Source of the DNA: Flammeovirgaceae bacterium
GTDB taxonomy: Bacteria; Bacteroidota; Bacteroidia; Cytophagales; Cyclobacteriaceae
DNA length: 64,000 nucleotides
Direction of reading: 5' to 3'
Assembly (NCBI GenBank): GCA_021298015.1
Contig: JAJTGY010000010.1
Location: 1-64,000, forward strand
Shown one piece after another: positions 122 through 15,386 of the stretch. How positions within the stretch are numbered: position 1 is the stretch's first letter; each line of letters opens with the position of its first letter. The position numbers and the translations under genes were made by a program. The notes beneath the pieces were generated by a model. It was not told the origin of the DNA. It did no database searches and worked only from the letters and a program-made list of their open reading frames with translations.

Positions 122-2101
122 CTACTTGATATCAAACTCGGCCAGTTCCTCTTCCAATTTAAAGACACTAACAGCCAACGGAGGCATTTCAATCGTTATC
201 GAATAATTCCGATTATGGTATTTGACGGGCGTGGTATACAACAAACCCTGATTCAGCACCCCACTTCCGCCATATTTCAGATTGTCGGAATTGAAAACTT
301 CTTTCCAGGCGCCCCGGAGGTCGACCCCCAGGCGGTAGTGGTGATGGCCTTGTGGCGTGAAATTGCAAACAACCAGCAGGGCATCTTTCGAGTCATCCGC
401 TTTTCGCAAGAAAACGAGTACGCTGTTATCGCGGTCGTTATAATCAACCCACTCAAACCCCTGTCCGCTGAAGGGATACTTGTAAAGTGCGGGCTCTGCC
501 TTGTACAACGCATTCAGGTCTTTCACCGCCTGCTGCACACCGCGATGGTAGGCATGATCCAGCAAGTGCCAATCCAAACTGCGGTCATGGTTCCACTCGC
601 CCGACTGCCCAAATTCACCGCCCATAAACAGCAACTTAGTGCCGGGGTGAGTGAACATATAGCCAAACATTGTTCGCAAATTGGCAAATTTATTCCATTC
701 ATCGCCCGGCATGCGACCCAAGAGGGAACCTTTTCCGTGCACCACTTCATCATGCGAAAAGGGCAGCATAAAGTTTTCTGTAAACGCATAAATAATACTG
801 AAGGTGACATCGTTTTGATGATACCTCCGGTAAATGGAATCCCGCTTAAAATATTTAAGGGTGTCGTGCATCCAGCCCATCATCCACTTTTGCCCGAAAC
901 CCAGACCGCCTGCATACGTTGGTCTTGATACACCGGCAAAAGCGGTTGATTCTTCCGCGATCGTTATGGCATCCGGAAACTCTCCGTACACAACCTCATT
1001 AAACTCCTTCAAAAAGCTAATTGCCTCTAAATTCTCGTTGCCGCCATATTCATTGGGAACCCACTCATCAGCCTTTCGTGAATAATCGAGATACAACATG
1101 GAGGCCACCGCATCGACACGAAGCCCGTCAATATGAAATTTGTCGAGCCAATAAACTGCATTACTAATCAGGAATGAGCGAACTTCATTACGGCCATAGT
1201 TATAAATATAGCTGCTCCAATCGGGGTGAAACCCCTTACGCGGGTCGGCATGCTCGAACAAATGAGTGCCATCGAAATTATACAGGCCATGTGCATCACC
1301 CGGAAAATGAGAAGGCACCCAATCGAGGATGACCCCTATGCCGGCCTGATGGAAAGCGTCTACCAACTCCATAAACTCCTGGGGAGAGCCGTATCGGCTG
1401 CTGGGCGCAAAGTATCCGGTCAGTTGATACCCCCATGATCCAAAGAAAGGATGCTCCATGACCGGCAAAAACTCGACATGCGTAAACCCCATCTCCTTCA
1501 CGTAGTAGACCAATTCCGTTGCCAATTCCCGGTAGCTTAACGATCGATTATTATCCTCCACCTTCCTTCGCCAGCTGCCTATGTGTACCTCGTACACCGA
1601 AATTGCCTTTTGATGGTCACTATTCCGTTTCCGTTGATCCATCCAGGTATCATCCTTCCACTCATATTGGAGATCCCACGTGATACTGGCCGTTTTGGGA
1701 GGCGTTTCGGAGAATACACCAAACGGATCAGCTTTTTCAAGGTACTCGCCCGTGTTGGAGAAAATAGCATACTTATACACTTCGCCATGTCCAACATCCT
1801 TAAAAAATCCTTCCCAAATACCCGACTCATCCCAGCGCGGATTCAACTTGTGCTGATGATTACTCCAGTAGTTAAAATTTCCGATCACCGAAACAGCCTG
1901 GGCGTTGGGCGCCCACACGGCAAAAAAGGTGCCACGCTCGCCCTTGTAATCCATCGGGTGTGACCCCAGCTTTTCGTACAAACGAAAATGCTTACCGGAC
2001 CTGAAAAGATGAATATCAAAATCCGTGATCAGGCTTGGTGATTCCCAAACATCATCCGTCTTTTTAATTTCCTCTGCCTTCTTCGATGTCTTTTTTCCCA
2101 T
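122..2101 (-). CDS. glgB: 1,4-alpha-glucan branching enzyme
   Basis: GlgB moves alpha-1,4 segments to alpha-1,6 branch points in cytosolic glucan. At 659 residues it is a branching enzyme without the extra N1 module of long enteric forms. A CBM48/E-set domain lies near residues 50-140, followed by a GH13 barrel. The nucleophile motif DGLRVDAVASML, the acid/base motif IAEESTAF and the transition-state motif SHDEVVHGKGS are all present. It is the last gene of the minus-strand glucan operon, 17 bp after the TreS-maltokinase gene. It would branch the linear chains made by GlgE encoded two genes upstream. Nothing looks damaged. The function is clear from the motifs and from the GlgE context. Confidence 0.96.
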   Translation of the reverse strand: MGKKTSKKAEEIKKTDDVWESPSLITDFDIHLFRSGKHFRLYEKLGSHPMDYKGERGTFFAVWAPNAQAVSVIGNFNYWSNHQHKLNPRWDESGIWEGFFKDVGHGEVYKYAIFSNTGEYLEKADPFGVFSETPPKTASITWDLQYEWKDDTWMDQRKRNSDHQKAISVYEVHIGSWRRKVEDNNRSLSYRELATELVYYVKEMGFTHVEFLPVMEHPFFGSWGYQLTGYFAPSSRYGSPQEFMELVDAFHQAGIGVILDWVPSHFPGDAHGLYNFDGTHLFEHADPRKGFHPDWSSYIYNYGRNEVRSFLISNAVYWLDKFHIDGLRVDAVASMLYLDYSRKADEWVPNEYGGNENLEAISFLKEFNEVVYGEFPDAITIAEESTAFAGVSRPTYAGGLGFGQKWMMGWMHDTLKYFKRDSIYRRYHQNDVTFSIIYAFTENFMLPFSHDEVVHGKGSLLGRMPGDEWNKFANLRTMFGYMFTHPGTKLLFMGGEFGQSGEWNHDRSLDWHLLDHAYHRGVQQAVKDLNALYKAEPALYKYPFSGQGFEWVDYNDRDNSVLVFLRKADDSKDALLVVCNFTPQGHHHYRLGVDLRGAWKEVFNSDNLKYGGSGVLNQGLLYTTPVKYHNRNYSITIEMPPLAVSVFKLEEELAEFDIK

Positions 2102-2118: not shown

Positions 2119-5100
2119 TCACTTCTTTTTTCGTTCTTCTTTTGCCAAAAAATAGCGGCTCATGTGATAATGAATGCCCCGGAGTGGAATCGCTACCCAA
2201 TCGGGTCGGCCGTTCAACTCATACCCCAGTTCGTAAATGGCTTTTTCAATCAGGTAAGTACGAATGAGCACTTCGTTTTCCAGGGCCAGGTCTTTATCCC
2301 ACCCCATACGTTCCATGTAGGCGCCCATATAAAAGCGGCTCACGTAGTGTTGCCACTGCTCGGCCCATTGCTCCAGAAACTCCATATCCTGTGCCCGATA
2401 GTTTTCATTGAGCAAAATCTTGCCAAAAGCGGCATAATGGAAAGAACGCATCATGCCCGCGACATCTTTAAGGGGATTCTTTTTCAATCTTCGTTCGCTG
2501 AAGCTAAAGCCTGGTTCGCCTTCAAAATCAATGATCACAAAATCCTTGCCCGTAAATAATACTTGACCCAGGTGATAATCACCATGGATGCGCGTTTTGA
2601 TGGCCTGGATGCGCGTGGTATAAATTTCACTGAAGCACTCCAAAATGCTATCCTCCAGCGCTAACACTTTTTCGGCCAACTCCCGGGTCTCTGCATTCAG
2701 CTTGGACAACGAATTCGATAACAGCCGCAATCGGTCCTTGGCCAGCTTTCGCAGTGACGAGTACAGCGAGCGCTGATAATTCGGAGTGAAATACTCGGGA
2801 GAGAAGGCCGGGTTGGCCGAATCCGAGGCCAGCGCCAGATGCATTTCAGCCGTGCGCTGCCCCAGGCGAACCACGCGTTCATAAAAACCACGCCCTACCA
2901 ATTCCTGAATCATTTCGGGCGCATCTTCAAAATGAATAGCCGAACGGTTCAACAGTTTAGGCACTTTTTCTTTACGGGCTTTTTCCAGTGCCCGCTCATA
3001 AAAACGTCCCACCGAATCAATCGTCATGCCCCAGGCATCTCCCTGATTATCGACCTTCTCTTGTAACAGTCCGAATACGTAGGTCTTCCCTTCAATGTCC
3101 CGGTACTCGACACTGCCCGCATACTTAGGTGAATTGCGGAAGCTCGTGCTCTCGGACAAAAACCGTACAATCTCCAGGTCGGGATTAATCTCTTTCTCGA
3201 TCTTTCGATAAAATTTGAAAAAATACTGATCGTTATAGATGATGGCCGTATTGCTCTGGTCGGCTTTCAAAATCTTCGAGTCAATGTGATCGACATTTAT
3301 CTTCGAGTAAACGCTCGAGTTGAACTCCAGTGTTCCCTCCTGATCTTTTAAGCGAAGTTTCTTTTCCATACTGCTAAGCATGAAATCCCGAAAACTGCGC
3401 ACATAACTGCTGTCCACCACAAATCCCGTCTTGCCCTGAACTTCAGCCCGGCACACTACACTTTGCGCAGTGTACTCGCCCTTGTCAAAAATCGTATCTG
3501 TGGGCACAAAGCATATTGGCAGGAAGTATAGCTCCGGCAGGCGCTGCACATAGTGGACTTCAATAATGGTCAGGTAATGCGTATCGCCATCTACCTTCAC
3601 CGGTACCACCTTGTGCACCGCCAGCTTACTGATCACCTTGGCTTTGCCCCCAAACCAGCGGCACTTGCGCATAAACGGCTGAAAGATTTTTCGTTCCAGC
3701 ACGCGCACTTCGTTGTAGTTGTTAAAGAGCTTCTCCCAGCTGGAATCGGTCTTCAACAGCTGCAATTCGCCACCCTCCTGCGCTTGGTCCTTCCTCTCGG
3801 TATCATCTACCTGAAACCAGAAATAGCCGTAGGGCCCGATCGTAATAGGGTACTCACCCGCTTCAACACTGCGGAAGCGATTCTGACTGAATACTTCGGT
3901 AATATCACAGTCTTTAAAATCCCGAAGAGCCAGCATGGTAGACTGCGAAAACTGCGACAAATTGGCCACGACAATAACCCGCTGCCCGTCATTTGAACGG
4001 GCAAAGCAAAGTACCTTGGCATTCGAACTGTCGATGAATTTCATATCTCCCCGGCCGAAAATATTCAGCCGTTTGCGCATGGCCAGTACACCTTTTACCC
4101 ACCACAACAGAGAAGACGAGTTTTCCTCCTGCGCCACCACGTTCACCGACTCGTACCGGTACACCGGATCTGAGATAATCGGCAGATACAATTTTTGTGG
4201 ATTAGCGGCAGAGAAGCCTGCGTTGATGTTCATGTTCCACTGCATGGGGGTGCGCACGCCATAGCGGTCACCCAGATACACATTATCCCCCATTCCAATT
4301 TCGTCCCCGTAGTACATTACCGGAGTGCCCGGTAAGGAAAAAAGGATGGTGTAAAGTAATTCAATTTTTCTCCGATCGTTTGCCATCAGAGGCGCCAGTC
4401 GCCTGCGAATACCAATGTTGCGTTTGTTATTCGGGTCCGAAGCGTAGGCTTTGAATAGATAATCTTTTTCCTCTTCCGTCACCATCTCCAATCCAATCTC
4501 ATCGTGATTGCGAAGAAAAATGGCCCACTGACAATTCTCCGGTGTTTCGGGTGTTTGCTCAATAATATCAGTGATCGGGTAGCTATCTTCCGTTCGAAGG
4601 GCCAGGAATAACCGGGGCATCAACGGATAATGAAAATTCATGTGGCATTCCTGCCCATCGCCAAAGTAAGCCGCAGCATCTTCGGGCCATAAGTTTGCCT
4701 CGGCCAGTAATACGCGATCGTCATAGTGCTTGTCGATGTGGCTGCGCAGCTTTTTCAAAAACGCGTGTGTCTGAGGCAGGTTCTCGCAGTTGGTGCCCTC
4801 CTCTTCAAAGAGAAAAGGAACGGATGACAACCGGAATCCATCTACGCCCAACTTCATCCAGAAGTCGGCCACCTTAATCATCTCAAACTGCACCTCCGGA
4901 TTTTCATAATTCAATTCCGGTTGATGCCGATAGAAGCGGTGCCAGTAATACGCCCGGGCCTCCTGATCCCAACTCCAGTTACCGGATTCATCATCAGAAA
5001 AGATGATGCGCGCTTGTTTATAACGATCAGGAGTTTCACTCCAAACGTAATAATCTTTAAAGCGGGAACCCGCCCTGGCTTTCCGCGACTTCTGGAACCA

Positions 5101-5442
5101 GGGGTGCTGGTCAGACGTGTGGTTGAGCACCAGTTCCGTCACCACTTTAAAACCCCGCTTGTGGGCCTCCTTCAAAAATGCCTTGAAATCACTCAGCGTG
5201 CCATAGTCCGGATGGATATCACAATAATCCGTAACATCAAAACCATCGTCCTTGAGGGGTGACGGGTAGAACGGCAGCAGCCAGATTGTGTTGATGCCCA
5301 GATCTTCGAGATAATCCAGTTTCTGAATCAACCCTGGAAAATCGCCAATACCATCACCATTGCTGTCAAAAAAAGCCCTAACGCTCACCTCGTAGATGAC
5401 GGCATCTTTATACCACAACGATTCACTTTTTAAAGCTGGCAT
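2119..5442 (-). CDS. treS: Trehalose synthase-maltokinase fusion, TreS domain lacking its nucleophile
   Basis: This 1107-residue protein joins an N-terminal GH13 trehalose synthase domain (about 1-550) to a C-terminal maltokinase (Pep2-type) domain (about 590-1100). The family interconverts trehalose and maltose and phosphorylates maltose for GlgE. The kinase looks intact, with HGDYHLGQ as catalytic loop and IIDFEGEP as the metal-binding Asp motif. The GH13 half has strong TreS hallmarks (EGTNCENLP, LLAEAN with Glu249, LRNHDE with Asp315). However, the usual FRLDAVP reads FRLSSVP, so Ser206 sits where the catalytic Asp belongs. I checked this in the DNA (codon TCA, complement of 4825-4827). 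Maltokinase activity is likely; isomerase activity is doubtful (inference). It sits 2 bp after glgE within the same operon. Confidence 0.9.
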   Translation of the reverse strand: MPALKSESLWYKDAVIYEVSVRAFFDSNGDGIGDFPGLIQKLDYLEDLGINTIWLLPFYPSPLKDDGFDVTDYCDIHPDYGTLSDFKAFLKEAHKRGFKVVTELVLNHTSDQHPWFQKSRKARAGSRFKDYYVWSETPDRYKQARIIFSDDESGNWSWDQEARAYYWHRFYRHQPELNYENPEVQFEMIKVADFWMKLGVDGFRLSSVPFLFEEEGTNCENLPQTHAFLKKLRSHIDKHYDDRVLLAEANLWPEDAAAYFGDGQECHMNFHYPLMPRLFLALRTEDSYPITDIIEQTPETPENCQWAIFLRNHDEIGLEMVTEEEKDYLFKAYASDPNNKRNIGIRRRLAPLMANDRRKIELLYTILFSLPGTPVMYYGDEIGMGDNVYLGDRYGVRTPMQWNMNINAGFSAANPQKLYLPIISDPVYRYESVNVVAQEENSSSLLWWVKGVLAMRKRLNIFGRGDMKFIDSSNAKVLCFARSNDGQRVIVVANLSQFSQSTMLALRDFKDCDITEVFSQNRFRSVEAGEYPITIGPYGYFWFQVDDTERKDQAQEGGELQLLKTDSSWEKLFNNYNEVRVLERKIFQPFMRKCRWFGGKAKVISKLAVHKVVPVKVDGDTHYLTIIEVHYVQRLPELYFLPICFVPTDTIFDKGEYTAQSVVCRAEVQGKTGFVVDSSYVRSFRDFMLSSMEKKLRLKDQEGTLEFNSSVYSKINVDHIDSKILKADQSNTAIIYNDQYFFKFYRKIEKEINPDLEIVRFLSESTSFRNSPKYAGSVEYRDIEGKTYVFGLLQEKVDNQGDAWGMTIDSVGRFYERALEKARKEKVPKLLNRSAIHFEDAPEMIQELVGRGFYERVVRLGQRTAEMHLALASDSANPAFSPEYFTPNYQRSLYSSLRKLAKDRLRLLSNSLSKLNAETRELAEKVLALEDSILECFSEIYTTRIQAIKTRIHGDYHLGQVLFTGKDFVIIDFEGEPGFSFSERRLKKNPLKDVAGMMRSFHYAAFGKILLNENYRAQDMEFLEQWAEQWQHYVSRFYMGAYMERMGWDKDLALENEVLIRTYLIEKAIYELGYELNGRPDWVAIPLRGIHYHMSRYFLAKEERKKK

Positions 5443-5444
5443 AT

Positions 5445-7388
5445 TTACATGTTCGATTCATGAATCTCAACTTTGAACAAATGAAACGGCAACTTATGCG
5501 GATTCAACTCCACAAAATTCCAGTCCTGCGTCCAGGTGTACTGCTCATGACTAACCAGGTCATGCAATTTGAGGTTGACTTTGTCGCCAAGCCGAAGTAC
5601 ATCCCGGGGCACCTGAACATATCCGCTTTGCGTGTTATTCGGGTCCATCGTGCACACACACAAAATAATATTCTTCAAATCATCCGTAGCCTTTACATAA
5701 GCCATTATGTTTCCGTTCTCAATAGTACAAAAACGGATATTCCAGGTGGATTGCAAGGCCTCATTCTCCTTCCGCGCGCGGTTGACCAGGCTGATGATGT
5801 CCGTCATCCGGTTGGTGCGTTTCCAGTCGTAGTGGCGCACCTCGTATTTCTCCGAATTCAGATACTCTTCCTTGCCTTCCACCGGCACGTTTTCATTGAA
5901 TTCGTAAGAGGGGCCATACATACCGTAGTTACTGGATAGCGTTGCCGCCAGAAAGTAACGAATGATAAAACTGTTCTCACCCGCATACTGCAGGTGATAC
6001 GGTAAAATGTCTGGTGTATTAGGCCAAAAGTTGGGCCGGAAGAAATTGCGCGAAGGACCATTTACCAGTTGATCCATGTACTCGATCAATTCGCCTTTGG
6101 TGGGCCGCCACGTGAAATACGTGTAACCCTGCTGAAATCCTACTTTGGCGAGTGCAGCCATCACCTTCGGGCGAGTAAAGGCTTCCGAGAGGAAAATAAC
6201 ATCGGGATACTTTGCATTGACTTCGCCAATAACCCACTCCCAAAACCGAAAGGCCTTGGTGTGCGGGTTGTCAACCCGGAAAATGGAAACCCCTTGCTCA
6301 ATCCAGAAGACAAAAATGGAATGCAGTTCGTCCCACAGGTTCTTCCAGTCGTCTGATTCGAAATTGAACGGATATATATCCTGATACTTTTTCGGGGGAT
6401 TCTCGGCATACTGAATGCTGCCATCGGGGCGCACTTTAAACCAGTTGGGGTGCTGCTTCACGTAAGGGTGATCGGGTGCGCATTGAAAGGCAATATCCAT
6501 CGCGATCTCAATTCCCATTTTTTTCGCCTCTTTCACCAGGGTGCGAAAATCCTCCAACGTGCCCAGTTCCGGATGCACCGATTTATGTCCTCCCTCCTCA
6601 CTACCGATTGCCCAGGGCGAGCCGGGCTCGCCCGGTTGCGCGTTCACATTATTGTTTTTCCCCTTCCGGTTGACTTTACCTATCGGGTGAATGGGCGGAA
6701 AATACAACACATCGAAACCCATAGCCGCCACGCGGGGCAGCAGCTTCTGACAGTCTTTAAATGTACCGTGCTTACCCGGTTGCAGCGAGGCCGACCGGGG
6801 AAAAAACTCATACCAACTGCTGAACAACGCCTTCTGGCGTTCAACCAAGATCTCATACGGGTACTCGATTGTGGTCTCATGCTCTTTTAACGGATAGTCA
6901 TGCACGATCTCAGCAAAGGACTTCGAAAGGACCGTTTCCACGGACTCCTGGTGCCGTTCCGTATCCTCCAGTTTCTTGGCGAGCAAGAGCAGATCTTTGT
7001 TCGTGGTGCCTGCCAACTGACGCAACATCAGGGCGCCCTCACGCAACTCCAGGGAGACTTCCACATTGGCCTTAGCTTTCTTCACAATGCCGTCAAACCA
7101 GGTTTCGAAGTGATCAACCCAGGCGTGGATCGTGAACTCGCAAATGCCTTGCTCGGTCACGTAGAAAGATCCGAGCCACTCATCATTACTCAAATGCCGG
7201 AGCGGAAGAATGGTCCAGTTTTTTCTGCCCTGCATGCGATACAACAGTTGGGCGCGCACGTGGTCGTGCCCATCGCCAAAGATGTGGGCCGTAACGTCTA
7301 CACGTTCACCCACCGTGCGTTTTGCCCGATAGATGCCGCCATCTACCACCGGTTGCACATGCTCAATAATCACTCGTTGCTTGCTCAT
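5445..7388 (-). CDS. glgE: Alpha-1,4-glucan:maltose-1-phosphate maltosyltransferase
   Basis: GlgE extends alpha-1,4-glucan with maltosyl units from maltose-1-phosphate in the cytosol (GH13 subfamily 3). The 647-residue length is typical. An N-terminal beta-sandwich and helical region (about 1-190) precedes the barrel. The nucleophile motif FRVDNPHTK, the acid/base motif FLSEAFTRP and the substrate motif NFWPNTPDIL are intact, as is GMYGPSYEFNENVP. These are specific to GlgE rather than to amylases. The gene is six bases from the upstream GH13 lipoprotein gene and directly before the TreS-maltokinase gene that should supply its substrate. The start at 7388 gives MSKQRVIIEHVQPVVDGG, a normal GlgE N-terminus. 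Confidence 0.96.
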   Translation of the reverse strand: MSKQRVIIEHVQPVVDGGIYRAKRTVGERVDVTAHIFGDGHDHVRAQLLYRMQGRKNWTILPLRHLSNDEWLGSFYVTEQGICEFTIHAWVDHFETWFDGIVKKAKANVEVSLELREGALMLRQLAGTTNKDLLLLAKKLEDTERHQESVETVLSKSFAEIVHDYPLKEHETTIEYPYEILVERQKALFSSWYEFFPRSASLQPGKHGTFKDCQKLLPRVAAMGFDVLYFPPIHPIGKVNRKGKNNNVNAQPGEPGSPWAIGSEEGGHKSVHPELGTLEDFRTLVKEAKKMGIEIAMDIAFQCAPDHPYVKQHPNWFKVRPDGSIQYAENPPKKYQDIYPFNFESDDWKNLWDELHSIFVFWIEQGVSIFRVDNPHTKAFRFWEWVIGEVNAKYPDVIFLSEAFTRPKVMAALAKVGFQQGYTYFTWRPTKGELIEYMDQLVNGPSRNFFRPNFWPNTPDILPYHLQYAGENSFIIRYFLAATLSSNYGMYGPSYEFNENVPVEGKEEYLNSEKYEVRHYDWKRTNRMTDIISLVNRARKENEALQSTWNIRFCTIENGNIMAYVKATDDLKNIILCVCTMDPNNTQSGYVQVPRDVLRLGDKVNLKLHDLVSHEQYTWTQDWNFVELNPHKLPFHLFKVEIHESNM

Positions 7389-7394
7389 AGTCGT

Positions 7395-8942
7395 TTACTC
7401 CATAATAATGGTCCCCCAGGCGGGCAATCGTATTTCATTTTCGCGTTTCACAGCTGCTTTTCGGCTGTCATAAATAATTTCTGAAAATCCAGGAGGTAAC
7501 GCGAACGTAACTTCCACATCCGACACGTTGTTCATCACCAAAAGCTGCTCGCCTTCGAATGCCCTCACGTAACTCACCACCTCGCCTATCGAAATGCCGG
7601 GTTCCTCCAATGTGCCGTAGGTGAGCACTGGGTGGGCATTGCGTAAGGCGATCAATTCGCGATAAAATTCAAACAAGCTGTTCGGGTCGCCCTTTTGTCT
7701 GGCGAACGGCACCACGGTTTGATCTGTCGAGTATTGAGGCACTTCCCATCGCGTCTCAACGAGGGACTTACCTGCTTCATCCCACAGAAACGGCTCACGA
7801 ATGAACTCATCCGGCTTTTGGCCGAGCATTCCGATTTCTTCGCCATAGTAGATGTAGGGAGTGCCTGGAAAGGTAAGCTGAATAGCAGCTGCCACCCGCG
7901 CCTTGTCCACGTTGCCACCCAACTCGCTTAATGTGCGGTTTTGGTCGTGATTGCGAATGAACGTGGCATCAATGTAGTCGCCCCCAGACGCTTCCGTGTA
8001 AAGACCTACAATACTTTTGTATTTACTAACGAGCCCAAGCGTGTCAAAGCCGGCATTGACCGTGCGAATGATGGAAATCCCCAGCTCGAAGTTGAAAAGT
8101 GCCGGCAGGCCCTTCAGGTATGGAGCCACCTCGTGAGGAGCACCTTCCGTATACACCTCGCCCACGAGATAGACGTCCTTCTTGAGTTTCTGCATCTCGG
8201 TTCGAAACCAAACCCAAAACGCATGATTATCCTGAGCGCGGTCGGTGGGATAGATATGTTTTGCGGCATCGAGCCGGAAACCATCAACATTCATTTCCTG
8301 AAGCCAATAACGGCCAATATCTACAAACTCCTCGCGCACCCGGGGATTATCAAAATTCAGATCGGGCATGCCACCCCAGAAGTAACCGTAATAGTGTTCG
8401 GCCGCGCTGTCACCATTTGGCGCGTGCCACTGCGTGATGTTATCAGAGTCCAGCTGAACTTCCTTTTTGGCAATTTCATCAGCTACCGAATCTTTGTCGG
8501 CCCATACGTAATAATCTCGGTAAGGACCTTGAGGATCTTTCAGTGCCGCCTGGAACCAAGGATGGTCAGAGCCGGTGTGATTCAAGATGAGATCGACCAA
8601 CACCCGTATGCCGCGCTGGTGCGCCTCGTTGACAAATGTTTTGAAATCATCCGGAGTGCCATATTCCGGATCAATACTCTTGTAATCCACCACATCATAC
8701 TTGTGATAGGTGGGCGACTTCATGATCGGCATAAGCCACACGCCTCCAATGCCCAACTCTTCCAGATAATCAAGTTTAGAGGTGAGTCCCTTCAGGTCGC
8801 CAATACCATCGCCATTGCCATCCGCGAAAGCGCGTACAAAAATCTCGTAGTTCACCCCGTGCGGCCATTGTGCAACTCGTTTCGGCTGAGGCTGGCAGGC
8901 AATCATCAGTAGAGCCGTAAAAAAACAAAGGCCGCGTATCAT
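7395..8942 (-). CDS. GH13 alpha-amylase family lipoprotein
   Basis: A 515-residue GH13 hydrolase or transglycosylase acting on alpha-glucan or maltooligosaccharide, probably in the periplasm or on the cell surface. The N-terminus has a short hydrophobic stretch ending in LLMIAC, a lipobox-like site. The barrel shows GDLKGLTSKLDYLEELGI, VDLILNHTG, the nucleophile motif DGFRLDAAKH, the acid/base motif VGEVYTEG and the transition-state motif RNHDQNRT. The overall pattern resembles oligo-1,6-glucosidase/amylase-type neighbours in glucan loci. Its start overlaps the stop of the preceding GH13 gene by one base (TAATG), so the two are probably translated together. Exact substrate specificity cannot be read from the sequence. 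Confidence 0.88.
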   Translation of the reverse strand: MIRGLCFFTALLMIACQPQPKRVAQWPHGVNYEIFVRAFADGNGDGIGDLKGLTSKLDYLEELGIGGVWLMPIMKSPTYHKYDVVDYKSIDPEYGTPDDFKTFVNEAHQRGIRVLVDLILNHTGSDHPWFQAALKDPQGPYRDYYVWADKDSVADEIAKKEVQLDSDNITQWHAPNGDSAAEHYYGYFWGGMPDLNFDNPRVREEFVDIGRYWLQEMNVDGFRLDAAKHIYPTDRAQDNHAFWVWFRTEMQKLKKDVYLVGEVYTEGAPHEVAPYLKGLPALFNFELGISIIRTVNAGFDTLGLVSKYKSIVGLYTEASGGDYIDATFIRNHDQNRTLSELGGNVDKARVAAAIQLTFPGTPYIYYGEEIGMLGQKPDEFIREPFLWDEAGKSLVETRWEVPQYSTDQTVVPFARQKGDPNSLFEFYRELIALRNAHPVLTYGTLEEPGISIGEVVSYVRAFEGEQLLVMNNVSDVEVTFALPPGFSEIIYDSRKAAVKRENEIRLPAWGTIIME

Positions 8943-10738
8943 TACTTCAGCTTAAAAATAAACGCGCTGTAAGCCGGCACTTCGAACCTGGCGGTGCGAG
9001 CGCGGTCGAAGCCTATGTCGGCTCCGCTACGCAGTAAGTCACGGCCTACATATTCTCGCTCACCTTGCCATTGCAGCAGGCCCGCTACGTCATCCGGAAT
9101 GTTGATCGCAATGGGTAATTTTTTGTCGGCAAAATTTGAAACGATCAGCAGCTTTTCATCACCAGCAAAACGAACAAAGGCATGCACCATTTGCGGAATA
9201 TTTCCCTGACCGATATTGTGGACGGTAACATCGGCATAGCCGCCCGAAGTAATCGCGGGGTTGTCCCGGGCCAGGGTGAGGATGTCTCCATAGAACTGGC
9301 GTAAGGACTTTTGTTCATCGCTCAAACGGCCACCATCAAAGGCGCCCCCGTTTACCCATTTCTGCAATTCCGGAACTCCCCAATAATCAAACATGGTGGT
9401 GCGCCCATCATCGCCCTGAAAACCTTCGTTGCCCAGGCCGGGCTCCCCCACTTCTTGTCCGAAGTAGATCATCATGGGCCCCTGATCAATAGTTGCACTT
9501 ACCACGGCAGCCGGGATGGCCTTGAACGGATCACCGGCAAAGAAGCGGGAAGCAAAACGCTGCTCGTCATGATTCTCCAAAAAGTGCAGCATGTTGTGAT
9601 TGATGCCTTGAAGGCTTTGCTGAATACCGGCTATGTGTTGGGTGGCCGACTGGCCATTTACCAATAACCGAAGCGTGTCGTACAATTGCACTTTGTCATA
9701 CAGAAAATCAAACCGACCAGTTTGGATATAATTTCGATACTGATCCGGGTTGTAGATCTCGGCAATAAACACGATGGCCGGATTAACAGCCTTCACCTGC
9801 GGTATCGCCCACTGCCAGAATTCCACCGGCACCATTTCGGCCATATCGCAACGAAAGCCATCCACGTTCTTACCCGCCCAATACACCAGGATGTCCTTCA
9901 TCTTCACCCACGTATCGGGTACCGGGTCAAAGTAGTTTTTGCGACCTCCCTGAATGTCAACTCCGTAGTTGAGTTTAACGGTTTCAAACCATTCATTCAC
10001 CCCCGGAGCGGGTGTAAACTGATCGTTCCCCGTGACTTTAGCTGGCGTCTCGGTATACGGGCCGGACACGACCAGGTCGGGCGGCAGCCGGTGATCGCGT
10101 GGCGACTGAAATGAGGTGCCCGGCAGGTAATAGAAATTGTTGGTCGGCTTAAACGCAGCGTTCGCGTCATCGCCTTCACCCAGATCTTTAACTCCGGCCG
10201 GTTTAGCATCGGAGTGGTATTGCCTGGCCACGTGATTGGGAACGAAATCGATGATCACCTTCAAGCCTTCCGCATGAGTGCGCTCGACCAGCGCTTCGAA
10301 TTCTTTCATCCGGTTCGGCACATCATCGGCCAGATCAGGGTTGATATCATAATAGTCTTTGATGGCGTACGGTGAGCCTGCCCTGCCTTTGACCACCGCG
10401 GGATGGTCAGTCGGGATACCGAAACGGGAGTAATCGGTCATGAGAGCATGTTCAATCACGCCAGTGTACCACACGTGGGTAACACCCAATTGCTTGATGC
10501 CCTGCAGCGCTTTGGTATTGATGTGACTGAATTTGCCGACACCGTTTTCCTCCAGTGTACCAAAGGTTTTGTTGGTGGCGTTGGTATTTCCAAACAGGCG
10601 CGTCATCATTTGGTAGACGATCACCTTTTGTTGGGCTGGGGGTGTCATGGGTGAATCCGGAATTTTGTCCTTAGGTGGCTGGCAGGCCGTGAGCGCCAGC
10701 AGTACAATCGAAATCGGTAGGCCAAACCTCATAAGCAA
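8942..10738 (-). CDS. GH13 alpha-amylase family lipoprotein, first gene of glucan operon
   Basis: A 598-residue GH13 enzyme with a lipoprotein signal ending LLALTAC (residues about 13-19), so likely anchored in the envelope. The catalytic motifs are VDFVPNHVAR, the nucleophile motif VDGFRCDMAE, the acid/base motif FIAEIYNP and the transition-state motif LENHDEQRF. A C-terminal beta domain follows. Together with the next gene it could release maltose or maltooligosaccharides for import, which would give the cytosolic maltokinase a substrate independent of trehalose (inference). It begins the operon; the region upstream holds a terminator for susCD rather than another glucan gene. The start could instead be the second Met, two codons in. 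Confidence 0.88.
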   Translation of the reverse strand: MLMRFGLPISIVLLALTACQPPKDKIPDSPMTPPAQQKVIVYQMMTRLFGNTNATNKTFGTLEENGVGKFSHINTKALQGIKQLGVTHVWYTGVIEHALMTDYSRFGIPTDHPAVVKGRAGSPYAIKDYYDINPDLADDVPNRMKEFEALVERTHAEGLKVIIDFVPNHVARQYHSDAKPAGVKDLGEGDDANAAFKPTNNFYYLPGTSFQSPRDHRLPPDLVVSGPYTETPAKVTGNDQFTPAPGVNEWFETVKLNYGVDIQGGRKNYFDPVPDTWVKMKDILVYWAGKNVDGFRCDMAEMVPVEFWQWAIPQVKAVNPAIVFIAEIYNPDQYRNYIQTGRFDFLYDKVQLYDTLRLLVNGQSATQHIAGIQQSLQGINHNMLHFLENHDEQRFASRFFAGDPFKAIPAAVVSATIDQGPMMIYFGQEVGEPGLGNEGFQGDDGRTTMFDYWGVPELQKWVNGGAFDGGRLSDEQKSLRQFYGDILTLARDNPAITSGGYADVTVHNIGQGNIPQMVHAFVRFAGDEKLLIVSNFADKKLPIAINIPDDVAGLLQWQGEREYVGRDLLRSGADIGFDRARTARFEVPAYSAFIFKLK

Positions 10739-11016: not shown

Positions 11017-12411
11017 TTAATTGTAACCTTGATTTTGAACGAGATTTTTGTTAGCGTCTGTTTCTCTCCGGGGAATCGGCATTACGAGGCGCTGGGCGCT
11101 GCTCACGGTAACCGCAGGGCCATTCTTGCGCCCAACGTTCTGTAGTACAGTAAGTGCTCTTCCGGTCCTTACTAAGTCAAAAAACCGGTGACCCTCACCA
11201 ACAAACTCCCATCTCCGCTCACGTTCAATGGCTTCGAGTAGGGGAACATCAGTTCCCGAGTCATAATTGGCCAGCCCAGCTCTGTTTCTTACGGCATTCA
11301 AGTCGCTGGTAGCACCCGCATTATTCGCTAGTCTGGCTCTTGCTTCAGCACGATTCAAATACATCTCCGATATCCGAAGTACATGCCCATCGTCAATATC
11401 TCCAGGCCGAAAATACTTCGTGGTGTACCAAACACCTACGACCGGATCAAAACCAAAGAGAGCCCTTCTTGCATCGGCAGAGGCGTAGCTGTTGTACAAC
11501 GCATCGTGGGCTGCTAATTCGCCCCTTCCACCAATTGCTCCTGGAGCGTACCAGAAACGAAGTCCACTTTGATCAGCCGTGTTAAACTGAATTTCAAGAA
11601 TTGACTCATTGGTAGCGTCTCCTGTGAAGATGGTAGAAAAGGGAGACACCAGTGTGAATTTTGAATTCGATATAACCTCAGTGGCCCGTGATTCAGCGGC
11701 CGCCCACTCACCCAGGTACAGATGGACCCGAGATAGAAGCGCCCTTGCCGCACTCTTAGTTGCTCTACCCCTTGTATTCGAATTGTTGGACTGGTCTTCG
11801 GGCAAAAGTGCCAGAGCTTGAGTCAGGTCATTTTTAACTTGCTGGTATGAGTCAGCCAGACTTGCCCGGGATGGAAAGGCACTATCATCAATTCCCCTAG
11901 ACGGATTAAGAATAATTGGAATTCCAATTGTTCCCGCTACACCTGGAACACCGCCCCAGACTCTTACAGCATCAAAATGACACAGGGCTCTGATGAAGTA
12001 TGCTTGGCCGAGGATATTATCTTTTTGAGCCTGTGTAGCCTCAATACCCGGAACCTGAGCAATCAGATTATTTGACTGATTAACACCCCGATAGATGAAT
12101 GTCCACAAGTCCAAGAGTTCAGTATTATCGGGTGACACACCATATGTATCCATCTCCCGGTAGAAATCCCAGGTACCAATACTTTGCGAAATATCTGCGG
12201 AAACATCGCTCAATCGCTGGATTCTACCCTGGTAGACACCTTGAACTTGGTTATAGGCACCATTCAATGCAGCATTGGCACCATTGAGGCTCGTTATCGC
12301 TTGCCCGTCTGATATCTGTAACTCCGGTTCTTGATCCAGTACATCGCAAGCAGTAATAAGAACCATCAAAAAAAGAAATAGCAGAATATTATTTTTCATG
12401 AGACGATTCAT
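11017..12411 (-). CDS. SusD/RagB family nutrient-binding lipoprotein
   Basis: SusD proteins are surface lipoproteins that cap the SusC channel and bind the glycan or peptide to be imported. This 464-residue protein has a signal peptide ending in VLITAC (lipobox), the N-terminal TPR-like region with GANAALNGAYNQVQG, and the C-terminal SusD signature region with LNRAEARARL, DLNAVRNRAGL and ERRWEFVGEGHRFFDLVRTG. The start overlaps the susC stop by one base (TAATG), which is normal for susC-susD coupling. A start at Met5 is also possible. The ligand cannot be told. Location beside GH13 genes hints at alpha-glucan or maltooligosaccharide, but the terminator shows it is a separate transcript. Confidence 0.95.
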   Translation of the reverse strand: MNRLMKNNILLFLFLMVLITACDVLDQEPELQISDGQAITSLNGANAALNGAYNQVQGVYQGRIQRLSDVSADISQSIGTWDFYREMDTYGVSPDNTELLDLWTFIYRGVNQSNNLIAQVPGIEATQAQKDNILGQAYFIRALCHFDAVRVWGGVPGVAGTIGIPIILNPSRGIDDSAFPSRASLADSYQQVKNDLTQALALLPEDQSNNSNTRGRATKSAARALLSRVHLYLGEWAAAESRATEVISNSKFTLVSPFSTIFTGDATNESILEIQFNTADQSGLRFWYAPGAIGGRGELAAHDALYNSYASADARRALFGFDPVVGVWYTTKYFRPGDIDDGHVLRISEMYLNRAEARARLANNAGATSDLNAVRNRAGLANYDSGTDVPLLEAIERERRWEFVGEGHRFFDLVRTGRALTVLQNVGRKNGPAVTVSSAQRLVMPIPRRETDANKNLVQNQGYN

Positions 12412-15386
12412 TAAAATGTTAAATTAATTCCACCCATTACTACCCTCGGTTGAGGCATCGCATACAGGTCAATGCCTTGTGCAAGGCCATTGAGGTCAGC
12501 TCCGGTGTTGACTTCGGGATCAAGGCCGGTGTAATTGGTGAAGGTGAGCAAGTTTTGAGCCGATACATACACGCGTAACCGGCTGATGCCGACACGCGAT
12601 GTAATATCCGGGCTCAACGTGTACCCCAATGTAATGTTCTTCAAGCGTAGGAACGATCCATCCTCAAGGAAACGTGAAGGTCTTAGATTTCCCGCATAAT
12701 TGGCAGCCAACTGGCGTGGAATGTCAGTAACATCACCGGGGTTTTTCCATGCATCCAGCTGAGACTCGACATAACCCGTGTTACGTGTACCTCCGTGCTC
12801 TTGGAAAAACCGTACCCAGTTCAACTGATCATTCCCAACAGTGAATTGCCAAAACATGTTAAAATCAAAGCCTTTGAATCGAACATTTGAGTTAAATCCA
12901 CCAAAGAAATCCGGTTGAGCATTCCCAACAATAAAACGGTCACGGCCGGCATTAAAGTCAGGAGAGTTTACGGCAGCTTCCCCATTGACGGTTCGATAAA
13001 TTGACAGTCCTGTCTCCGGAGCAACCCGGACTTGGTCATGCAACCAGAACGAGAACAAGGGAATACCCTGCTCAAGTCGGATTACATCCCTTGTGAAAAC
13101 GTTAAACGGAGCAGCTAGTTTTTTGATTAGGTTTCTGTTTTGGGAAATGTTAAACGAAAAGTCAATAAACAGTCCGTCTCGGTCAAGTATCACACCTCCG
13201 AGTCCGAGCTCGAATCCTTTGTTCTCCATCTCACCAAAATTTTGTACCAGTTCATTAAAACCAGTTGTTCGCGGAACAGGCACAGCCAACAGCAAGTCTT
13301 TCGTCTGCTTATTGTAGTAGTCAAACGTTAATCGCCACCGGTCATTCATAAATGCCAAGTCAATCCCAACGTTTGTCTGTGTTGTGGTCTCCCATTTCAA
13401 ATTAGGGTTTGCTAACTGCTGAGGCTCTGTTCCAGGAAAATCCGTATAATTTGCTCCGCCTCCCCAAAGACCAAATGACTGAAAGTCCCCGATCCCGTTT
13501 TGATTACCGGTAACCCCCCAACTGAAGCGAGGCTTTAACGTGCTGATGAAATCAAGACCGCTCATAAAGTTCTCCTTCGTCACATTCCAACCTACGGCAA
13601 TGGATGGGAATGTCGCGGCCTGATTAGCCGACCCAAAACGGGATGAAGCATCGCGTCTCACATTGATCGTAGCTAGATACTTCCCCTTATAGTCGTAGTT
13701 GACGCGGGCAAAAATTCCCGAAATGCCCCACCCGGTGGCGGAGGAAGAAGAAGTCTGTACCGCGGCCGAAGCAATCCTTCTAAAATCGTCACTCGGAAAC
13801 TGCTGACCATTTGCCTGCGTACGTTCAAAGTAATTCTCTTGTACCGAATACCCGACAAGCGCGTTTAGGTTGTGCTCTCCAAATCTCCGCTGATAGGACA
13901 GAACATTTTCCCAAATCCAGTTGTCATCAACAGTAACAATGGAAGACGCATCACCGTTGGTTGCCGATCCAGTGTTCAGTTTGGTGTTATCGTACCGATC
14001 CTCCTTCACGTTGTTATAGTCGACACTGAATGTACTCCTAAACAACAACCCATCCAATATCTCATATTCGCCATACACGTTGGCCAACACCCGATTGGTT
14101 ATCATACTAATATCGACCTCATTGACAGCTGCCACAGGGTTCTCGAAAGGGGAAAACTTGAGGTATGAACCGTCTGGATTATAAATCGGCTGATTCGTGG
14201 GTAAGAAATAAGCTGCCCCAAGTGCACCAAATATGTTATTGTCGTTGCGAACTCGGTTTCTGAAGTTTCTGGAATACAAGATACTCGTACCCACCTTTAA
14301 TTTTTCGGTGGCTGTAAAGTCAAGGTTGACACGACCGGTTTTTCGATCAAACTCAGAAGGCTTGATAATGCCATCCTGGTCAAAATAGTTAAACGAGGTC
14401 ATGTATTTAACTCGATCAGAACCGCCCGACATGGCAATATCAAAATTATACATTGGCGCATCCTGAAAGATTTCTCCCATCCAGTCGGTGTTCAACGCAG
14501 CATCCGGATTAGCATAGAGCGGAGCCTGACCATTATTGGCTCGTGACTCATTGATGAGTCGTTCAAAGGTCGGACCGTCAACTACAGCGGGCTCTCTCCA
14601 AAGCGTTTGAACGCCATAATAGGTGTTCACGTCAATCTTAGTCTTCTGATTCTTCCCACGCTTAGTTGTAATCAAAACAACTCCGTTTGCGGCTCGCGCA
14701 CCGTATATGGCGGTGGCCGATGCATCTTTTAATATCTCCATTGACTCGATATCAGCAGGATTCAAATCCGCGATTGGATTTGTTAGCTGCCCTCCCAGGC
14801 CAATCGCACTCAGGTTGGTTGCAACGATTGGAATTCCGTCTACAACGTATAGCGGGTCACTACTTGCATTTATAGAGGTACTGCCTCGCACACGTACAAA
14901 CACACCACCACCGGGGGTGCCTGACGCAGCGTTGACCTGAACTCCTACGGCACGCCCCTGCAACATTTGATCAGGTGATGCCATTGGTAACCCGGCAATC
15001 TCCTTGGCACCAACCGAAGTGATTGAGGACGTTAGCGTTTTTCGCTCCTGTGTCCCATACCCAGTCACCACAACCTCTGAAAGTTGTTCGATGTCAGCCT
15101 CAAGGGAGACATCGATGGTAGTTCGCTCACCCACTTCGACCTCTGTTGTTCGAAAGCCGATGAATGAGATAACAAGTGTTGTAGATGATCCCGGGACGGA
15201 GAGCGAGTAATTTCCGTCAGCATCTGTGACAACACCCTTACTGGTCCCCTTGATGAGAACATTCACACCCGGAATCGGGGCCCCATCTTCGGATCCTGTG
15301 ACCCGACCCGAGACTGTTCGGTCTTGGGCTCGCGCCAAGCCAATGAAGCTAAAAAGCGCGATTACAAATAGTAAAATTTTCCTCAT
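12411..15386 (-). CDS. SusC/RagA family TonB-dependent outer-membrane transporter
   Basis: A 991-residue SusC-like channel that imports substrate across the outer membrane using TonB energy. The order is a signal peptide ending ARAQ, a carboxypeptidase-D-like regulatory domain (about 23-105, GVNVLIKGTSKGVVTDADGN), a TonB-box-like stretch LSEVVVTGYGTQ, a plug domain with SDPLYVVDGIPI and the IYGARAANGVVLITTKRG motif, then a 22-strand barrel ending in GGINLTF with a terminal Phe. Length is normal for the family, and there is no N-terminal anti-sigma-interacting extension. No ECF sigma or anti-sigma gene is next to it, so regulation is not evident. It is paired with the overlapping susD gene. 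Confidence 0.96.
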   Translation of the reverse strand: MRKILLFVIALFSFIGLARAQDRTVSGRVTGSEDGAPIPGVNVLIKGTSKGVVTDADGNYSLSVPGSSTTLVISFIGFRTTEVEVGERTTIDVSLEADIEQLSEVVVTGYGTQERKTLTSSITSVGAKEIAGLPMASPDQMLQGRAVGVQVNAASGTPGGGVFVRVRGSTSINASSDPLYVVDGIPIVATNLSAIGLGGQLTNPIADLNPADIESMEILKDASATAIYGARAANGVVLITTKRGKNQKTKIDVNTYYGVQTLWREPAVVDGPTFERLINESRANNGQAPLYANPDAALNTDWMGEIFQDAPMYNFDIAMSGGSDRVKYMTSFNYFDQDGIIKPSEFDRKTGRVNLDFTATEKLKVGTSILYSRNFRNRVRNDNNIFGALGAAYFLPTNQPIYNPDGSYLKFSPFENPVAAVNEVDISMITNRVLANVYGEYEILDGLLFRSTFSVDYNNVKEDRYDNTKLNTGSATNGDASSIVTVDDNWIWENVLSYQRRFGEHNLNALVGYSVQENYFERTQANGQQFPSDDFRRIASAAVQTSSSSATGWGISGIFARVNYDYKGKYLATINVRRDASSRFGSANQAATFPSIAVGWNVTKENFMSGLDFISTLKPRFSWGVTGNQNGIGDFQSFGLWGGGANYTDFPGTEPQQLANPNLKWETTTQTNVGIDLAFMNDRWRLTFDYYNKQTKDLLLAVPVPRTTGFNELVQNFGEMENKGFELGLGGVILDRDGLFIDFSFNISQNRNLIKKLAAPFNVFTRDVIRLEQGIPLFSFWLHDQVRVAPETGLSIYRTVNGEAAVNSPDFNAGRDRFIVGNAQPDFFGGFNSNVRFKGFDFNMFWQFTVGNDQLNWVRFFQEHGGTRNTGYVESQLDAWKNPGDVTDIPRQLAANYAGNLRPSRFLEDGSFLRLKNITLGYTLSPDITSRVGISRLRVYVSAQNLLTFTNYTGLDPEVNTGADLNGLAQGIDLYAMPQPRVVMGGINLTF

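Follow-up and report, generated by a model that had tools for sequence, protein, structure and literature searches.

The TreS-maltokinase fusion encoded in the window (the whole stretch of 64,000 nucleotides that was analysed) has lost the catalytic nucleophile of its TreS half. This loss has a single origin and is fixed clade-wide. We infer that the TreS half is probably a pseudoenzyme scaffold joined to an active maltokinase, in a GlgE pathway that is fed by maltose and independent of trehalose. An earlier note on this DNA had suggested that maltokinase activity may be all that the fusion still has, with maltose coming from outside and not from trehalose. The proposal is supported by the clade-wide loss of the nucleophile without reversal and by an intact kinase motif, from which activity is predicted. 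Further support comes from a remodelled +1 subsite, the absence of TreZ, OtsA, TreT and GlgC from the window's genome, a maltose-phosphorylase-like GH65 gene in the same genome, and a single GlgE per genome, placed beside the dead copy also in genomes that have an intact TreS paralogue.

The fusion protein and its nucleophile position

The open reading frame (Table 1) carries VDGFRLSSVPFLFEEEGTNCENL around residue 206. It scored 844 bits against TIGR02456 (TreS N-terminal; curated cut-off 678) and 444 bits against TIGR02457 (maltokinase; curated cut-off 375). By whole-domain similarity the GH13 half belongs with TreS (GH13_16, EC 5.4.99.16), which agrees with the earlier reading of it as a trehalose synthase, but by the Asp nucleophile it does not. 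For Mak/Pep2 (EC 2.7.1.175), both the TIGR02457 match and the catalytic HGD.H..Q with the metal-binding Asp were found, including the HGDYHLGQ noted before. An AlphaFold model made with 25 sequences (mean pLDDT 77, pTM 0.56) was poor in the active-site loops and S8 and was used for overall fold only. The modelled fold also matched the Mycobacterium smegmatis TreS:Pep2 complex 5jy7.

Table 1. Features of the fusion gene and its operon (positions in the window)
Feature	Position	Strand	Remarks
glgB, branching enzyme	122..2101	-	LRVDAV present
TreS-maltokinase fusion	2119..5442	-	1107 aa, ATG start, single uninterrupted ORF; TIGR02456 and TIGR02457 above curated cut-offs
Maltokinase half, predicted active	2170..3747	-	residues 566-1091; fold match mycobacterial maltokinase 4u94
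DFE, metal-binding part of kinase site	2521..2529	-	residues 972-974
HGDYHLGQ of kinase site	2563..2586	-	residues 953-960; canonical at tested positions in 117/121 clade members
TreS-like GH13 half, putative pseudoenzyme scaffold	3808..5415	-	residues 10-545; best PDB fold matches are TreS
Asp314, transition-state stabiliser (DrTS Asp319), retained	4501..4503	-	121/121
Glu248, acid/base position (DrTS Glu251), retained	4699..4701	-	E in 117/121, D in 4/121
SVPF, +1 subsite; Ala207->Ser and Tyr210->Phe vs intact TreS	4813..4824	-	residues 207-210
Codon 206, TCA (Ser), GH13 nucleophile position (DrTS Asp209)	4825..4827	-	non-Asp in 121/121 clade members, Asp in 88/88 others
glgE, maltose-1-phosphate maltosyltransferase	5445..7388	-	PF11896 in 97%-identical orthologue; nucleophile motif FRVDNP
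GH13 lipoprotein A, SusG/alpha-amylase-like	7395..8942	-	lipobox LMIAC, nucleophile FRLDAA; in many clade operons
GH13 lipoprotein B	8942..10738	-	lipobox LTAC, FRCDMA; in most clade operons with sufficient upstream sequence
SusD-like lipoprotein	11017..12411	-	from ORF translation only
SusC-like TonB-dependent transporter	12411..15386	-	from ORF translation only

Ser206 sits in FRLSSVP, where the PDB TreS chains 5x7u, 5h2t and 4lxf align without gaps and have Asp. The claim that Ser replaces Asp here was thus borne out by the ORF reading and the PDB alignment, and also by the relatives described below. At least two base changes are needed to turn an Asp codon into TCA. The other two catalytic acids, given before as Glu249 and Asp315, are both present; their true numbers are Glu248 and Asp314, so that the numbering was off by one. 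GlgE, GlgB and both GH13 lipoproteins keep their nucleophiles, as had been stated (motifs in Table 1).

Fusions were gathered from the genus, family and order, and by a cross-phylum scan. None of the 121 full-length relatives (66-100% identity) had Asp at residue 206; the counts were Pro 57, Ala 37, Ser 21 and Gly 6, and some loci in this set are one genome present in two collections. Asp206 was found in the 88 other fusions (44-54% identity, several phyla). After near-identical rows were dropped, the contrast was 62 dead against 58 Asp-bearing proteins. Named members of the dead clade include Chryseolinea, Chryseosolibacter and Chryseotalea, and no member outside the window's family was found in the genus, family, order or cross-phylum scan.

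Trees were made with FastTree after removal of the diagnostic columns and were left unrooted. A single branch, supported at 100, separated the dead clade from all other fusions in the whole-protein, TreS-half and kinase-half trees. Asp is the general nucleophile of GH13, and loss rather than gain of Asp is therefore the clear reading of the unrooted tree. The five residue states required 20 changes, at least 19 of them inside the dead clade and none back to Asp. It had been asked whether Ser206 is common to a clade: the absence of Asp is, and Ser itself is not, being found in 21 of the 121. A Ser-specific clade was ruled out, residue 206 wandering among S, P, A and G.

That Ser206 stems from faulty sequencing or assembly, or marks a decaying pseudogene, has next to no probability. 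Nothing beyond the oddity of the residue speaks for it. Ser is also present in the 99%-identical locus L038 of an independent MAG, and non-Asp residues recur in the 121 loci from many assemblies, isolate genomes included; the frames are long and open, with a mean pairwise identity of 80% in the TreS half. The clade-wide pattern rules out both error and decay.

Regional rates were set against those of intact family copies whose TreS halves are similarly diverged. Active-site loops 60-74, 105-119, 145-159 and 200-214 showed the largest relative rises in the dead clade. Dead/intact ratios were 1.26 for domain B, 0.86 for S8, 0.72 for the C-domain, and 0.50 and 0.57 for the kinase lobes. Slower change in S8, C-domain and kinase together with faster change in domain B matches the prediction for a retained scaffold with an active kinase. 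Without its nucleophile the TreS half would be unable to form the covalent glucosyl-enzyme intermediate and hence would not interconvert trehalose and maltose. It may persist as a folded, oligomerising platform for the maltokinase half. Docking of the kinase on the TreS half is argued by analogy with mycobacteria; the M. smegmatis TreS-Pep2 contact (salt-bridge) residues could be placed here with low confidence, at positions that lack conservation.

One member of the dead clade (L076/L137, genome G295) had no GlgE that could be found, Asp in place of the acid/base Glu, and Arg in place of kinase Gln960, which may represent further decay.

Sugar pockets of the dead clade

Active-site positions were assigned from the residue map of Deinococcus radiodurans TreS (DrTS; PMC4257617), in which Ala210 and Tyr213 are +1 subsite residues and the mutants Y213A, E320A and E324A are inactive (PMC4257617). 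The -1 pocket is intact in the dead clade, D65, H108, R204, H313 and D314 each being present in 121/121 and E248 in 117/121. E315 is likewise kept in 121/121. The DrTS-like +1 set of Ile, Ala, Tyr, Glu and Glu is not found there. Tyr210 is replaced by Phe in 119/121, Ala207 by Ser or Asn in 119/121, and Ile147 by Met, Leu or Val (mostly Met) in 92/121; the two Glu are mostly kept. Thr317 is changed to Gly or Ala, and Asp150 is variable (+1 subsite/gate). Tyr210 matches DrTS Y213, but Phe is a milder change than Ala. Variation was compared across 280 TreS-half sites that do not vary among the intact copies of the family. It exceeded background at the +1 and gate sites (P 0.02) and was somewhat lower at the six tested -1 residues than at matched background sites (P about 0.08). 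Overall, the dead clade has a remodelled +1 subsite and gate and a conserved -1 sugar pocket.

The nearly perfect retention of the -1 pocket and acid/base residue counts against a pure scaffold, which does not need them. The strongest rival reading, sugar sensing, can coexist with a pseudoenzyme scaffold: maltose, glucose or trehalose bound in the -1 pocket without turnover would switch the maltokinase on or off. We regard this as possible though unlikely; it falls within the pseudoenzyme reading and shares part of that reading's probability. It agrees with the invariance of D65, H108, R204, H313, D314 and E315, with E248 in 117/121, with the lower variation of the -1 residues reported above, and with the M. 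smegmatis complex, where the kinase ATP site is close to the interface with TreS (PMC6509496). Retention alone is, however, weak evidence, since 129 of 199 ultraconserved TreS-half sites are invariant in the dead clade anyway, and drift is seen in the +1 subsite and gate.

The GH13 half could instead have kept or acquired another, Asp-independent activity, for instance a transfer or hydrolysis reaction in which phosphate or water, occupying the vacated space, serves as an outside nucleophile. In its favour, the acid/base and stabiliser residues are retained and residue 206 is always small; against it, Pro is dominant, the site wanders among P, A, S and G with no fixed replacement, and the +1 subsite has drifted. 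Such an activity is improbable.

Trehalose and maltose supply

The pseudoenzyme scaffold remains the preferred reading, and the gene content of the genomes bears on its substrate. Together, glgE, maltokinase and glgB are present in the window. Searches of the window's genome for TreZ (taken as a stand-in for the TreYZ route), OtsA, TreT and GlgC returned no match, nor was a second TreS found. Neither a trehalose supply (OtsA, TreYZ or TreT) nor GlgC-GlgM was therefore found for its GlgE pathway. Two routes to maltose 1-phosphate (M1P), GlgC-GlgM and TreS-Pep2, both closely tied to trehalose, are given in a 2024 review (PMC11046441), and in this genome both are without their source.

Genomes were divided by the fusions that they carry. 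Those with dead copies only (n=30) had TreZ in 0, OtsA in 4, GlgC in 5 and GlgE in 29. The corresponding numbers were 15, 16, 1 and 16 (one GlgE each) in dual genomes (n=16), and 16, 22, 0 and 15 in intact-only genomes (n=22). In dual genomes the single GlgE adjoins the dead copy and not the intact paralogue, and in four of them TreZ is 3-6 kb away from the intact copy. In many single-copy genomes the intact copies stand in the order GlgE-fusion-GlgB, several of them 2.3-2.4 kb from TreZ. A strong maltose-phosphorylase-like GH65 was found in 28/30 dead-only, 16/16 dual and 1/22 intact-only genomes. Fisher P values for gene co-occurrence were small but overstated, as the dead-only genomes comprise four genera and are not independent. 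On the window's contig there is a GH65 protein nearest to maltose phosphorylase 1h54, near a GH13 alpha-glucosidase-like gene.

OtsA in 4/30 dead-only genomes counts against the trehalose-free reading. It would fit an arrangement in which trehalose still feeds GlgE and TreS has been replaced by another protein, as would the intact TreS paralogue in 16 other genomes. The window's genome, with no TreZ, OtsA, TreT or second TreS, speaks against this, and we consider it highly improbable.

In the favoured maltose-fed route, the GH13 lipoproteins of the operon would cut maltodextrins, and the products, the presumed source of maltose, would enter through a putative importer. The maltokinase half would turn this outside-derived maltose into M1P in the cytoplasm, GlgE would polymerise the M1P, and GlgB would branch the product to give glycogen, with no part played by trehalose. 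A precedent for maltose feeding the GlgE pathway is the Streptomyces venezuelae glgE mutant, in which M1P builds up on maltose and not on galactose (PMC5042117). Genomes without trehalose synthesis may have been under selection to lose TreS activity. The equilibrium of TreS lies on the trehalose side (PMC11046441), and such a loss is understandable because an active TreS without a trehalose supply would only drain incoming maltose into trehalose.

Dead-copy operons have the order GH13 lipoprotein B-(lipoprotein A)-GlgE-fusion-GlgB. An ORF of about 800 aa came next in the inspected loci (GH57/DUF3536 in L038). This GH57/DUF3536 protein (L038:16532-18937; L139:360-2822) adjoins dead and intact operons alike. 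The SusC/SusD-like pair (11017-15386) lies between a NupC-like gene and lipoprotein B, and is missing there in L038. Elsewhere, a 687-aa GH65-like protein (L223:4901-6964; G000:C11 about 103 kb) covers only the first half of the catalytic domain and is adjoined by a 571-aa protein without a Pfam match.

Fusions with the mirror-image pattern were also found. An intact TreS nucleophile was combined with a decayed kinase motif (HGH, HGN, DFGG etc.) in L159, L161, L163, L164, L166, L167, L193, L195-L201 and L212, which mostly have no adjacent GlgE or none at all. GlgE was absent from six of the seven family genomes with a kinase-decayed fusion (G066, G141, G145, G192, G219 and G240) and lay beside a second fusion in the seventh (G148). 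In f11, a different family of this order, GlgE was present, far from the kinase-decayed fusion. It may be that either half is prone to decay when the pathway that it partners has been lost or uncoupled.

Relation to known GlgE pathways

The TreS-Mak of Estrella lausannensis (PMC7935935) and TreS-Pep2 of Pseudomonas aeruginosa (PMC11046441) share the two-domain order and the GlgE-pathway role of the present fusion. They are bifunctional, with an active TreS and trehalose as substrate, whereas here the nucleophile and part of the +1 subsite are gone. Mycobacterial TreS binds maltokinase and speeds it up (PMC6509496), and in the M. smegmatis TreS:Pep2 complex (5jy7) TreS likewise acts as a maltokinase platform, although as a separate and active protein. 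The GlgE-pathway PUL of Pontibacter sp. SGAir0037 similarly combines SusCD/GH13, GlgE, GH13_16, branching enzyme and GH57 (PMC11206854); it has TreY and TreZ, in contrast to the dead-only genomes without TreZ. The window's genome and 25/30 dead-only genomes gave no hit for GlgC, which the other published M1P source (GlgC-GlgM; PMC11046441) requires.

A literature search of open-licence papers returned no description of a TreS lacking its nucleophile or of a trehalose synthase as a pseudoenzyme, and a TreS of this kind is likely to be new to the literature. Retention of GlgE together with loss of the TreS nucleophile and, mostly, of trehalose synthesis points to a trehalose-independent, maltose-fed route, and suggests that glycogen synthesis in these Cyclobacteriaceae draws on external maltose instead of trehalose. 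As a more specific proposal, less likely than not, this would be a trehalose-free third entry to the GlgE pathway, in which imported maltose is used by a maltokinase with the dead TreS domain as its maltose-binding regulatory subunit. The dead clade provides a natural separation of TreS catalysis from the maltokinase-platform role, a question raised by the mycobacterial TreS:Pep2 structure. Because dead-clade proteins pass TIGR02456, they will be labelled trehalose synthases, probably wrongly so across the whole clade.

An ORF of about 270 aa corresponding to an N-terminal GT5 glycogen-synthase domain was present in 38/38 genomes searched (G000:C79:40568-41230), mostly without GlgC; a conserved GlgA-GT5 fragment in Bacteroidetes is mentioned in the 2024 review (PMC11046441).
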